Shown here one piece after another: positions 1 through 4,155 of a stretch of DNA of 58,659 nt. The first letter of the stretch is position 1, and each line of letters begins with the position of its first letter. The notes beneath the pieces are model-generated. The model did no database searches and was not told the DNA's origin. It saw nothing but the letters and a program-made list of their open reading frames with translations. Position numbers and translations under genes: made by a program. Source of the DNA: Planctomycetaceae bacterium (GTDB taxonomy: Bacteria > Planctomycetota > Planctomycetia > Planctomycetales > Planctomycetaceae); assembly GCA_002726205.1 (NCBI GenBank), contig PBSL01000014.1, forward strand, positions 1 to 58,659, in the 5' to 3' direction.

Positions 1-201
1 CTACCGACGATTGTCCAGGCCAGGGCCGTGTTTGAATCAGGGATGGTCGATGACACCGGCTTGCCCATCCCGATTCGTGATGATCGCCGCCGTCTGATGA
101 TGCCGGATGGTCGATTGGTGTATGTCGGCGACCTGGATGAACCGGGAGCGGCGACCAGTCGTTTGGCACTGGTGGCTGTCCGCGAGTTGGCGACTGGATG
201 A
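1..201 (+). CDS. C-terminal fragment of an unidentified protein
   Basis: An open frame enters from the left edge and stops with TGA at 199-201, giving about 66 residues ending in VAVRELATG. The visible part has a short acidic/basic segment (VDDTGLPIPIRDDRRR) followed by a beta-like stretch (GRLVYVGDLDEPG). Codon use resembles the neighbours. I do not recognise a family. It lies 252 nt upstream of the reverse transcriptase pair on the same strand, so it could be an unrelated gene or a lost partner of that cassette; the window edge prevents a decision. Confidence 0.55.
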   Translation, partial: LPTIVQARAVFESGMVDDTGLPIPIRDDRRRLMMPDGRLVYVGDLDEPGAATSRLALVAVRELATG

Positions 202-241: not shown

Positions 242-415
242 CGGGCTCACTCGTGGGCTGGCGACCGGTGCGGACAACCCTTTTGACTTCTGCCATTACC
301 CAGCACCGGCGATTGGCAGGCCGGGAGTTCCCGGATCGTGGCCCTCGCTTTCAGTGGATGAAACGAGCTCTAAGGGAAAAGGATTGATGGAGTGATGCCC
401 GGGGTATCCTCGGGC
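242..415 (+). ncRNA. Candidate structured RNA upstream of tandem RTs
   Basis: This untranslated stretch contains nested inverted repeats. CGGGC-TCACTC (242-252) pairs with GAGTGA (390-395) plus GCCCG (397-401), giving 11 bp with one bulged T at 396. Inside lie CCGGTGC/GCACCGG (265-271 with 303-309), an alternative CTGCCA/TGGCAG (290-295 with 314-319), the tight hairpin CCGGGA-gt-TCCCGG (321-334) and an 8-bp hairpin with one bulge (344-367). The right arm can alternatively pair locally (GCCCG 397-401 with CGGGC 411-415). A closing long-range helix around hairpins, just upstream of an RT, is how retron msr-msd RNAs are organised (a1/a2 repeats). The assignment is inference; with the promoter proposed at 213-241 the first few bases of the left arm might not be transcribed. 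Confidence 0.4.
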
Positions 416-453
416 TTCTGGGCACGCCGTTTGGGTTCGGGTCGATTGAGGCT

Positions 454-1467
454 ATGACTGTGATCACGATTCCCGACCCGCTTTCTGATGATTGTCGAGT
501 GGCCCTGTCGGATCTGCTGCGGTTGCCGGTCGAGCAGGTCATGGCGGCGTGGAAGGTGTCCCAGACTGACCGCGGTTACGACTGGAACCTGTACGGCGAC
601 CGCGTGATCCATGTTCCTCAGCCCCTGCTGAGCGAAGTTCAGCGGCAGATTCTTGATCGAGTCCTGCGGACCGGTCCGATTTCTCCGGCCGCTTTTTCCG
701 GTGTCTCTGGACGATCTTACGTCTTGGCGGCCACGAGACACTTGAGTGGTCCTCCGGCCGAGACCGCGGCGTTGGATATTGCTGACGCCTTTGGATCGAC
801 CACCTACGGTCACGTCCGTGGGGCGTTGTGGAAACGGCTCAAGCAGGAGTTGTGGATTCTCGGACTCAGCGGCTCCGAATCGACTGCAATCGTGAAGGTC
901 CTGTCTCACCTGGCGACGGTGGCCGACAGGGCGAGGACGAGACGGTTGCCGCTGGGGTCTCCATCGAGCGTGGCGATGTTCAACCTGATTCTGTTGCCGT
1001 TGGACGGCGAGATGCTCAGGTGGTGCAGTGAATACGGAATCACCTACACCCGTTACGTGGACGACATGGTGTTTTCGTGTCCCGACGGCCTGCCGCCTGA
1101 CCTGGAATCTCGTGTCGAGGCCGTTGTCAGGCGCCATCGCTATCGCCTGAATCACGGCAAGACAATCCGTCATGCGGCCGGCAGTGCGAGGGTACACGGG
1201 TTGGAGCGGACGACCGAAGGGGTTGTTCCGGGAGCGGACGCTGTTGAGCGGTTTGCCGCCCGGGCTCGCTGGCACCAGGGGAAGGCTGTCGATGAGACGT
1301 CCTCGAGATCCCAGCGTGAGCGAAGCTATGGTTTTCTCAGGGGGCTCGACGTCTTTCTGAGGCAGTTCTACGAAGCACAAGACCTGCAGCGTCCCGATTC
1401 ATTGCGGATTGTTGTCCCCGAAGGAGCGGAAAGGCCGGTGCCACCGATCGATCTGTTGTGGAATTGA
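454..1467 (+). CDS. Reverse transcriptase, diverged retron-like (first of tandem pair)
   Basis: This 337-residue protein has the ordered RT blocks in compact form: HVPQPLLSEVQRQILDRVL (53-71), a degenerate block 2 (GRSYVLAATRHL, 86-97), block 3 LDIADAF with catalytic D108, block 4 RLPLGSPSS (164-172), block 5 YTRYVDDMVFS with D203/D204, block 6 RLNHGKT (231-237) and block 7 RVHGLE (246-251). All three catalytic aspartates are present, so polymerase activity is expected. Compared with ordinary retron RTs the QG of block 4 is replaced by LG and the NAxxH motif is lost. ATG 454 is the first start after an in-frame stop at 385-387. Its end overlaps the next RT by 10 nt, implying coupled translation and equal dosage. 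It could be a UG/DRT-type RT; exact class is undetermined. No intron-maturase X or endonuclease domain is present. Confidence 0.85.
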   Translation: MTVITIPDPLSDDCRVALSDLLRLPVEQVMAAWKVSQTDRGYDWNLYGDRVIHVPQPLLSEVQRQILDRVLRTGPISPAAFSGVSGRSYVLAATRHLSGPPAETAALDIADAFGSTTYGHVRGALWKRLKQELWILGLSGSESTAIVKVLSHLATVADRARTRRLPLGSPSSVAMFNLILLPLDGEMLRWCSEYGITYTRYVDDMVFSCPDGLPPDLESRVEAVVRRHRYRLNHGKTIRHAAGSARVHGLERTTEGVVPGADAVERFAARARWHQGKAVDETSSRSQRERSYGFLRGLDVFLRQFYEAQDLQRPDSLRIVVPEGAERPVPPIDLLWN

Positions 1468-2495
1468 ATCGTCCCGCCGACACGGCGTTCGCGATGTTGG
1501 CTCGCCTGCTGTCGACCGACAACGAGGTCGTGCGTGCCGGACACGAGGCCCTTTCCGGTGGCGACGCTTACCGTTCGTGGGAGGTGCCCAAGGGAAACGG
1601 GAAGACGCGACGGATCGATGCGCCTGTCGAGGAGTTGAAGCAGGTCCAGTCACTGCTGCTCACCCGCTTGTTTTGTCACGCTCCGACGTCTCCCTTTGCT
1701 CACGGTTTCGTTCCCGGTCGCAGCATCGCGACCAATGCGGCAGTTCATCAGCAGACGGGCCGGTCGCTGGTGTCGCTGGATTTGGAGGACGCCTATCCTT
1801 CCGTCAGTCGGCAGCGGGTGGTCAAGACTCTCGAGTGGGGACTGGGATATTTTCTCAAGCACGTTGCCCCCTGCTCGTCGCGGGAGTCGCGCGACGAGCT
1901 CTACGAACTGATCGCCGACCTGTGCTGCTTCCGCCAGTGCCTGCCGCAGGGGGCGCCGACTTCGGGCCTGCTGCTGAACATGGCCTGCTGTTCACTGGAT
2001 CGGCGCTGTGCCCGATTGCTGCGACGTTGTCGCGATCAGTTCCCGGAACTGAGATACACGCGGTATGCTGACGACCTCAGCTTCACCTCCTCCGAGGAAT
2101 TGTCGCACGAGTTCCTGGAACAGGCGATCGGCTGTGTGGTGCAGGCGGGATTCCGTGTTAATCGTCGCAAGGTGAAGCGGTATTCGGTTCGAAACGCTGA
2201 TCTGGTCATCTGTGGAATCCGCCTGCACGAGGGCCAGTTGACCCTGCCGCGACGGGTCCTGAGACGCTATCGCGCCCTGCTGTTCCAGTCTCTAGCCTAC
2301 GGGCCCGACGAGATCTCCGAAGAGAACCGTCAGTTCCTGCTGGGGCACATCGGTTTCCTGACGATGGCCAGTTCGGTTTGTCCGCCACAACTGGAACGGC
2401 TGCTTGAAGAAGTGCTTCAGCAGCACGGATCATGGCTGCGGTCCGGTGTGGCATCACACATTCTGCCTAGCTACGGCGAGGTCGGCCGGTCCTGA
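1458..2495 (+). CDS. Reverse transcriptase, retron-type (second of tandem pair)
   Basis: This 345-residue RT carries clear retron-type motifs: KGNGKTRRIDAP (45-56) followed by a block 1 helix, HGFVPGRSIATNAAVH (82-97) with the NAxxH signature, LDLEDAYPS with D108, LPQGAPTSGLLLNM (162-175), YTRYADDLSF with D205/D206, GFRVNRRKVKR (231-241), and ICGIRL (251-256) where retrons usually have a VTG motif. The C-terminus continues as a thumb-like helical region to residue 345. The GTG start at 1458 lies inside the last codons of the upstream RT and has no obvious ribosome site, so it probably depends on translational coupling. A 6-bp inverted repeat (2480-2485 with 2497-2502) straddles the stop codon. 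Base composition matches the flanking genes, so there is no compositional sign of recent transfer. Confidence 0.9.
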   Translation: MELNRPADTAFAMLARLLSTDNEVVRAGHEALSGGDAYRSWEVPKGNGKTRRIDAPVEELKQVQSLLLTRLFCHAPTSPFAHGFVPGRSIATNAAVHQQTGRSLVSLDLEDAYPSVSRQRVVKTLEWGLGYFLKHVAPCSSRESRDELYELIADLCCFRQCLPQGAPTSGLLLNMACCSLDRRCARLLRRCRDQFPELRYTRYADDLSFTSSEELSHEFLEQAIGCVVQAGFRVNRRKVKRYSVRNADLVICGIRLHEGQLTLPRRVLRRYRALLFQSLAYGPDEISEENRQFLLGHIGFLTMASSVCPPQLERLLEEVLQQHGSWLRSGVASHILPSYGEVGRS

Positions 2496-2622: not shown

Positions 2623-4155
2623 TTAGTGCCCGTTGGTGAACTGGAACGAATACAGGTCGGCGTCCTTGATCACAAACCGCAGCCTGACGGGTCGGTCGGC
2701 CAGTTGACTGACCGCCGGTTGGCCTTGCCAGCGAATGGTTCGATTCAGGGAATCCCCGAAAATCTCGGGGCAGTCTTCCAACCGGAATCCATCGATCGGT
2801 TTTCCTGTGGAATCCTGTATTTCCACGCGGACGCTACCGGCGGCTGATGTCGAAAAGTTCATTGTCAACGCATCGCCCCGGAAGGTGATCGGCCTGGTCA
2901 CGATTTCTCCACCGCTCAGCGGCGCCTGCAGCGACACGAATCCGTCGATTCGCAACGAATAGCGGCGAAATCGCTTGGCCTTGCCGCCGGAACTCCAACT
3001 TCCACCGTCGTCGACATACAGGGAGAGTTCGTTGGGCGTGTCGGCCGTTTCGGATCTGGTCTCGAGCAGACCGTAGCCTGGCATGGTACCGGCATAGATC
3101 CAGCGAGTCCTGCGGGGGCCGGGTCGGACGAAGGCCTCACCCCATCGCCGAAAATTCACTCCATCCCGACTGGTCATGAACAGGGTCTCGGTGATCGACC
3201 CGAACTTGTAGGAAGGGTGTTTGGTGATCGGCAGCCCCTTTTCAATTTCCCTCCCGGCCATGAATCGGCAGGGAAAGCCCACGAACAGGTGCGGAGCACG
3301 GTAGTAGGGGCGAATCTGGTTGACGTAGATCTGCATGCGTGGGGAATCGGGATAGTCGATCCATCGGGGCTGGGTCCAGTGCCGAAAGTCCGCTGATGTC
3401 GATGTCAACACGTCACGAGCCGGTCCCTTGTCATCGAGACCGAGTTGGGGGCCCTTTGCTCCGAACTCGTCGTTGGGTCCTCGCATTTCGCGGAAGAAGG
3501 CCACATAACGGCCCCGTACCGAGTCCCAGAATGCCAGGTTCTGCGAGTCGAATTTTCCCTTGGTGATCAATGGTTGACTCCCGAGTTGTCGCCAGCGGAT
3601 CGCGTCGCCTGATGCAAACGCGTAGAGTCCCCTGGTCGGCTTGTCTAGAACCGCCAGGGCCTTGAACCGTTGATCGGGCTTGCAGGCCGGGTTGGTGTCC
3701 AGGAAGGGGACGAAGGTCAGCGAGACATCTCCGGTGAGAATGATGTTGTTCTTCCTGGAGCCGTTGAACTCGACCAGTCCCAGGTCCGGCCTCGTCCAGT
3801 GAATGCCATCCCGACTCTCGGCATAACAGGTGAAGTCCTGGTGCGTTTGTTGTCCGAGTGCTCGCCAGTTTCCTGCCCGGTAATACATGCGGTAGGTCTT
3901 GCCATCCTGGAAGAAGACGGGGTAGCCAGAGACATTGCCTTCCCATGGCTTGTTGCAGATGAAAGCGTCGCTGCGTTCGGTCGGTCTGTGCAGACGCAAT
4001 TCCGCCCTGCCCACGAAGCGGTCAATCAGGTGGGTGTCCACGAACAACTCTCGCCGCGAGCCGATGTCGATGGCGTCGGCGGCGGATGATTCGCCGGGAC
4101 CTGTGGCCTGTGAACAGGCAAACAGCATTGTCAGGACGGTGGCGAGTGTCTTCAT
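2623..4155 (-). CDS. Secreted glycosidase/sialidase-like beta-propeller protein
   Basis: A 510-residue exported protein with an N-terminal signal (MKTLATVLTMLFACSQ); LFAC could be a lipobox with C14 as the lipidated residue. The body contains repeated Asp-box-like blade elements (ESRDGIHWTRPD, TSADFRHWTQPRW, TSRDGVNFRRWGEAF) typical of five-bladed propellers related to GH32/GH43/GH33 proteins of planctomycetes. The C-terminal part ends with a beta-sandwich-like signature (RLRFVIKDADLYSFQF) found at the end of many such proteins. The likely job is binding or cleaving glycans outside the cytoplasm; no specific substrate or catalytic residue can be assigned. It is convergent with the RT pair, with 127 nt between them. 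Confidence 0.7.
   Translation of the reverse strand: MKTLATVLTMLFACSQATGPGESSAADAIDIGSRRELFVDTHLIDRFVGRAELRLHRPTERSDAFICNKPWEGNVSGYPVFFQDGKTYRMYYRAGNWRALGQQTHQDFTCYAESRDGIHWTRPDLGLVEFNGSRKNNIILTGDVSLTFVPFLDTNPACKPDQRFKALAVLDKPTRGLYAFASGDAIRWRQLGSQPLITKGKFDSQNLAFWDSVRGRYVAFFREMRGPNDEFGAKGPQLGLDDKGPARDVLTSTSADFRHWTQPRWIDYPDSPRMQIYVNQIRPYYRAPHLFVGFPCRFMAGREIEKGLPITKHPSYKFGSITETLFMTSRDGVNFRRWGEAFVRPGPRRTRWIYAGTMPGYGLLETRSETADTPNELSLYVDDGGSWSSGGKAKRFRRYSLRIDGFVSLQAPLSGGEIVTRPITFRGDALTMNFSTSAAGSVRVEIQDSTGKPIDGFRLEDCPEIFGDSLNRTIRWQGQPAVSQLADRPVRLRFVIKDADLYSFQFTNGH

Follow-up and report, generated by a model that had tools for sequence, protein, structure and literature searches.

The ncRNA of a retron comprises an msr and an msd part with a1/a2 pairing of its ends, and reverse transcription is primed from a G. 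To our knowledge, known retrons operate with one reverse transcriptase (RT) and one ncRNA. In a published comparison (PMC6868368), the NAxxH motif is present in 14 of 16 verified retron RTs and the VTG triplet in 14, with two varying. Cooperation of two RTs is described for DRT3, a system of Drt3a and Drt3b in which an ncRNA template is reportedly used by Drt3a (PMC13174585). The pair of overlapping RT genes analyzed in this study seems to represent a previously undescribed system in which two enzymes make DNA on an RNA template, and no description of such a two-RT system was found in the open-access PMC literature, outside whose scope most subscription papers lie.

The window, that is, the whole stretch of DNA analyzed here, covers bases 1 to 58,659 of contig C14 (126,141 bases) in a genome of 76 contigs (G000). 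Two forward-strand genes encode RT1 (454–1467; 337 aa, ATG start) and RT2 (1458–2495; 345 aa, GTG start), which share 10 nt (1458–1467, forward strand), bearing out the original prediction of two overlapping RT genes of these lengths; the overlap suggests that translation of RT1 and RT2 may be coupled. Both proteins exceed the Pfam RVT_1 cut-off of 29.6 bits (RT1, 32.7; RT2, 62.4) and, as had been predicted, retain the three catalytic aspartates, namely the block-3 Asp and both block-5 Asp in YVDD of RT1 and YADD of RT2. RT1 is an N-type subunit with YVDD, LPLGSPSS in block 4, AATRH, and VHG, and without Lys in block 1 or Asn in region X. RT2 is a C-type subunit with YADD, NAAVH, and ICG; the NAxxH motif previously noticed in the second RT is therefore present as NAAVH, RT1 having AATRH at the equivalent place. 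The G+C contents of RT1 (0.607) and RT2 (0.618) are near the value of the window (0.611). A 510-aa ORF on the reverse strand (2623–4155) adjoins RT2 and has no Pfam match at E 0.1. A third retron-like RT of the same genome (L035:4619–5194) is cut off by the end of contig C7.

Among solved structures, RT2 is closest to Ec86 (6e-18) and RT1 to Ec78 (4.3e-10), both of which are retron RTs. The NCBIfam scores of RT1 and RT2 are all below cut-off, the best of the curated retron RT models being St85 (95.6 and 153.8 bits; cut-off 235), and PADLOC matches are scattered across numerous retron RT models and point to no clear type. The VTG triplet with which region Y starts in retrons is absent from both proteins, RT1 having VHG and RT2 ICG in its place. 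Identity with DRT3 is ruled out by sequence, as the original prediction had anticipated, since the Drt3a model gives 13.3 and 16.1 bits, far below its cut-off of 200. The DRT3 template motif ACACAC is absent from positions 1–453 of the window, the sequence before the contig start lying outside this range.

RT1 and RT2 were each searched against 392 genomes of the GTDB phylum of the window, and neighboring RT ORFs were sought in the listed loci, at most the best 30 per search. Among the matches listed, an adjacent RT ORF pair besides that of G000 occurs only in a second planctomycete (G065; locus L034), in which RT1b and RT2b have the same order as in the window and a 4-nt overlap. Window RT1 shares 28% identity with L034:2513–3508 (reverse strand) and 33% with the N-terminal half of the RT fusions described below, and window RT2 shares 38–39% with RT2 of three other systems. 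A third ORF follows the G065 pair (L034:1–1479, reverse strand; 493 aa), which is open at the contig end and has a weak kinase match (E 0.077). With an RT2 profile, E 1e-60 was reached by G000 alone among 327 genomes of the class of the window, and the next best match in 59 near relatives of the window organism scored 186 bits versus 562; near this organism, the pair is rare.

When genome contigs were scanned for two RT1 motifs, 61 stretches matched, and these gave 23 loci; because the scan was made with these two motifs, fused RTs with other motifs would escape it. One locus is the G065 contig again, and in two others (L079 and L081) both RTs lie in one frame of 720 and 723 codons. The fused gene is present in all five genomes examined of the phylum of L081 (G392, G393, G397, G398, and G399), encoding proteins of 717–721 aa with the catalytic motifs intact in both halves (5/5). 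Adjacency of the two RTs thus recurs, in the same order in G065 and as a fusion in another phylum, and the two-RT unit, far from being confined to the genome in which it was predicted, was found in three lineages. Of the genes beside the fusion, Pfam identifies AdoHcyase in G392 and, after the fused gene of G399 and G398, an outer-membrane efflux protein; in G392 the fused gene is followed by an HNH gene, and in G393 the contig stops at the fused gene. RT frames interrupted by a stop codon were seen at L089:6443–7261 and L091:6569–7204.

Residue signatures distinguish the subunits in all seven systems, the window included: Y[VLI]DD is found in RT1/N (7/7), and YADD together with [IL]CG, the latter sitting where retrons have VTG, in RT2/C (7/7). 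These seven systems are also the ones on which the tandem-RT family (Y[VLI]DD-type RT1, then RT2 carrying YADD and [IL]CG) was defined. Further changes, SPSS in block 4 and a shortened block 1, are common to RT1 of the window and RT1 of G065. The seven RT1/N, seven RT2/C, and eight single RTs form one 22-row clade with an SH-aLRT value of 95 in a 93-row tree and 98/95 in a 47-row tree, the latter being a hand-chosen subset of the 93 rows. RT2/C proteins lie on one side of a branch with support of 94/90. RT1/N proteins are monophyletic in only 26% of 200 bootstrap trees, although their monophyly is not rejected (AU p 0.349); neither a clade of RT1 and RT2 excluding the single RTs (AU p 0.354) nor a sister relationship of the two G000 RTs (AU p 0.177) is rejected, and the end branch of window RT1 is long (2.93). 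Phylogenetic placement, which the original prediction had proposed as a check, therefore unites both RTs in one retron-like clade but does not settle the grouping of RT1/N. Mainly because of the subunit signatures and gene order, RT1 and RT2 appear to have come from one old, ancestral duplication.

The eight single RTs belong to the same clade and the same ncRNA family as the pair and fused systems. An alignment of all eight reveals an N-terminal CPxC...CPxC, YADD, and VTG; the motif suggests a zinc ribbon, with no Pfam zinc family above cut-off. In five of eight loci (L052, L054, L055, L056, and L057), pnp is located about 0.5 kb or less downstream of the single RT, with rpsO between them in L057; one of the eight loci stops at the RT. 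For a retron-like RT, this location resembles that of a core gene. A single RT is detected at E 1e-80 in five of the six genomes examined of that class.

An ncRNA is present in every single-RT locus with complete upstream sequence (7/7), the upstream sequence of G123 being cut by the contig end. In these seven loci, it measures 261–296 nt between a GACTGGCYACCTARCC-like 5′ motif and a 3′ GCGCA[AG]T motif, and both ends pair; a conserved 5′ domain of approximately 110–130 nt is followed by a variable stretch, and a terminator-like hairpin comes after the ncRNA in the loci read further. RNAalifold predicts 32 pairs on a plain MAFFT alignment of the seven ncRNAs, 20 of which show double changes in one or more sequences. 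No match to the family was found in Rfam. The presumed branch-site column holds G in four and A in three of the seven ncRNAs and is predicted to be paired.

For the 5′ part, a covariance model (R1) was built from the seven single-RT ncRNAs alone; over 262 kb, with E allowed up to 10, it gave one match beyond its own rows. This match (L034:3731–3834; 19.5 bits, E 0.011, or 0.00025 when the locus is searched alone) lies directly upstream of the G065 RT pair, where the upstream region folds better than its shuffles (z −4.75); a search of the whole G065 genome with R1 did not list it. The conserved upstream RNA of the original prediction was consequently recovered with the single RTs and immediately before the G065 pair, but only as a marginal candidate in the window and not beside the fused-RT genes.

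Structural support was assessed on two larger alignments. A12 contains 24 rows (14 from G392, one each from G393 and G065, and eight single-RT loci, L150 included); 91.5% of its cells are paired versus 40–53% in slid controls, and none of 500 shuffles attains any of five measures. In A13 (31 sequences), 90.6% of cells are paired and 19 pairs have double changes, a count attained by 12 of 500 shuffles, the other measures being attained by none. Each alignment had been fitted to the model, which favors these statistics. The end stems were kept outside the model: an exact match of each sequence to its own CG+revcomp(a1) occurs in 13 of 28 sequences versus a permuted mean of 0.76 and a maximum of 5 (500 rounds). 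Several of the 15 sequences without an exact match are one mismatch off, and among the misses a1 was placed differently in L034 and L223 than in the reading of individual ends below and was probably misplaced in L187 and L227. Differing ends pair with their own partners (GGTAG/CTACC, AGTAG/CTACT, TCTTG/CAAGA, and, in G065, AGCAG/CTGCT), but the CGTAG copies do not match theirs (CTACC, one mismatch). An upstream ncRNA with an end stem of the a1/a2 type is seen in the single-RT relatives and G065, the window having a marginal ncRNA match only.

Copies of the ncRNA are dispersed in the fused-RT genomes. R1 matches 15 scattered places in G392, with E from 1.3e-6 to 0.57. A second covariance model, R2, was trained on A12, which has no rows from G397–G399, and was applied at E up to 1; its matches to the 24 A12 rows are by construction, as these are its training rows. 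R2 found 25 matches in G392, all at E 3.3e-5 or better, of which 11 are new and four lie at contig ends; two strong matches (one new) and one weak in G393; two each in G397 and G398, all new; and, in G399, new matches throughout, of which one is strong (E 7.8e-9) and four are weak. The strong matches in G397–G399 range from E 5.8e-14 to 7.8e-9. Two matches (one new) were obtained in G107 and one known row each in G065, G006, and G123, with one additional weak match in G123. The R1 matches in G392 and G065 and the R2 matches in G397–G399 are independent of training rows. The second ncRNA of G107 (L230, approximately 725–834) is solitary and lies far from the RT; it carries the two end motifs but has a different inner part.

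None of the strong matches in fused-RT genomes is on the contig of the RT gene, and no conserved ncRNA was found beside the fused RTs, whose upstream sequences are unconserved save in the close pair G397/G398 (94.9%). The G392 copies read (L161–L171, L173–L176, L220–L224, L227, and L228) are located between ordinary-looking genes and have a common 5′ domain and differing inner parts. Between G397 and G398, the 5′ domain is 99.1% identical and the preceding 60 bases are 93.3% identical, compared with 77.6 and 86.5% for the inner part and 78–87% for the wider flanks; the 5′ domain is thus under constraint, whereas no constraint is visible on the inner part. Beyond chance, eight inner regions searched against the five fused-RT genomes matched only themselves (eight self-matches; next E 0.026).

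Codon periodicity in 99-nt windows was tested on 18 of the 25 G392 copies, and 12 of them gave p ≤ 0.015 (10 of 11 and two of seven in two batches), compared with none of six copies in other genomes. Of 18 stretches intended as element-free controls, three reached p 0.02; their coordinates place two of these inside cassettes and the third at the edge of a locus. Long ORFs were rejected as an account of the cassettes, which hold none longer than shuffles do (Fisher p 0.17), and no source of the cassette peptides was found in PHROGs (best E 0.23), by phage tblastn, or in a viral scan. As regards their origin, the codon-periodic cassettes are a lead and not a result.

Viral scans with RT1/RT2 patterns were unproductive, and a further scan gave nine viral loci with a single RT each. 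In plasmids and phages, tblastn yielded RT matches, none with one place spanning 80% of the fused protein, and blastn with one ncRNA 5′ domain gave no match. In 25 viral stretches with exact ncRNA motifs, covariance model R3 confirmed none (best E 0.9, elsewhere) and no RT ORFs were found.

Upstream of RT1 in the window, the original prediction had placed a folded, untranslated stretch with a promoter. The folding was not borne out: positions 202–453 give z = +0.19, and 113 of 200 shuffles fold equally well or better. A promoter-like consensus match is present at 213–241 on the forward strand (TTGACA-17-GAGAAT, 10 of 12) but is near chance, as shuffles of 2700 bases average 0.5. The gene said to be cut by the window edge is indeed truncated; its ORF (1–201, forward strand) is open at the 5′ end where the window begins contig C14, stops at 201, and matches nothing in PADLOC, Pfam, or NCBIfam at E 1.

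Searches of the window with R1, R2, and R3 point to a marginal candidate for the ncRNA 5′ domain at 279–399 (forward strand). With filters off, R2 gives it 9.5 bits (E 0.042 per 3 kb), the top match in 3 kb; with R3 it is again the top match (5.5 bits, E 1.3 per 6 kb), the runner-up scoring 5.2. R1 scores 280–396 at 3.0 bits, ranking seventh, and an unrelated stretch (2701–2817) at 9.5 bits. The candidate is absent from covariance searches run with default filters, and its inner part would have little space before the RT1 start at 454. The ncRNA 5′ motif with up to three mismatches matches three times in the window versus 3.7 expected, never near the RTs, and no a1/a2-like matching ends were found there by eye. 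We consequently regard 279–399 as a candidate and not as an established ncRNA of the window. No secure ncRNA was detected by R1 or R2 in the rest of G000 either; its weak R1 and R2 matches fall at different places, and the R2 one (E 0.35) reads as coding by eye.

Taken together, these results make it probable, in our judgment, that the pair goes back to an old duplication and forms a heteromeric retron-like RT, which recognizes a structured ncRNA and copies its variable stretch into DNA. RT1 and RT2 would be two subunits of one RT, encoded by overlapping genes in two planctomycetes and fused elsewhere. A heteromer is favored because the pair occurs in the same order in G065 and as a single fused protein in 5/5 genomes. 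We infer that this enzyme would recognize the ncRNA, with its msr-like 5′ domain, msd/template-like variable stretch, and short end stem, that the variable stretch may be copied into DNA by the RT, and that the two active sites may have different tasks, for example, first- and second-strand synthesis. The original prediction of a two-RT element making DNA from an upstream RNA is accordingly strengthened in its heteromeric part and by the ncRNA of the relatives, but not by the RNA of the window itself. A broader, speculative and rather unlikely proposal is a new class of RT systems in which a heteromeric or fused tandem RT, found in all five genomes examined of one phylum, acts in trans on dispersed ncRNAs, each linking a 5′ domain recognized by the RT to its own cassette. 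Many G392 cassettes have codon-periodic stretches, and the eight searched match nothing else in that genome, as if the ncRNAs stored a library of templates of foreign or captured origin.

The antiphage role raised in the original prediction found no support, as no shared effector was detected and the identified neighbors of the fused genes are ordinary genes. The kinase-like gene of G065 and the HNH gene of G392 were dismissed as a general effector, neither being common to the systems. That the locus is a two-RT antiphage system analogous to DRT3, of which the cut upstream gene is a further component, seems unlikely to us; such a system would agree with two different RTs in one operon, with the truncation of the upstream gene by the contig edge, and with the precedent of cooperating RTs in DRT3 (PMC13174585), but the Drt3a model scores only 13.3/16.1 bits against 200 and the neighbors differ among a kinase-like ORF (G065), an HNH gene (G392), and an efflux-protein gene (G399 and G398). 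Defence is possible, without a specific pointer to it here, and the fused-RT genomes would agree equally well with a role in chromosomal regulation or one resembling a memory.

The very long branch of RT1, its lack of the block-1 Lys and region-X Asn, the lack of a secure ncRNA in the window or G000, and the isolation of G000 among the 327 class genomes at E 1e-60 would also be expected of a decayed or highly diverged retron, with an active RT2, a degenerating duplicate RT1, and a lost window ncRNA. We consider this quite improbable, since the RT1 frame is open with its three catalytic Asp kept, Y[VLI]DD is found in RT1/N of 7/7 systems, and both domains are kept in the fusion in 5/5 genomes. 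Chance adjacency of unrelated retron-like RT genes, with which the weak grouping of RT1/N would agree, is extremely improbable and was rejected given the same-order pair of G065, the order, overlap or fusion, and residue signatures common to three lineages, and above all the fused proteins of 5/5 genomes, which speak strongly against it.

If the heteromeric reading is true, an RT with two active sites and a genome-scattered ncRNA family would represent a new organization of cellular reverse transcription. The purpose of such DNA becomes testable with defined parts, as a single genome offers a fused RT together with about 25 natural ncRNAs.

Compared with DRT3, the system proposed here would likewise have two RT genes acting together, but both RTs fall inside one retron-like clade. 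The tandem family has two RTs and [IL]CG in RT2/C, whereas its single-RT relatives have one RT and VTG. The ncRNA of the relatives is like that of retrons in its conserved 5′ part, variable part, and stem closing both ends, and RT2 shares NAxxH with retron RTs, unlike RT1. Retrons differ in having one RT instead of two RTs or a tandem RT and VTG instead of ICG or VHG; a conserved effector was not found here, and in the fused-RT genomes the ncRNA would act at a distance (in trans), unlike in retrons. In Nannocystis exedens, msDNA-like sequences are reportedly dispersed in the chromosome and possibly retrotransposed, to go by the titles of Lampson and Rice from 1997. Their chromosomal dispersal, as the titles have it, resembles that of the ncRNA copies described here, whereas the present copies have a common 5′ domain and end motif and an inner part that varies from copy to copy.
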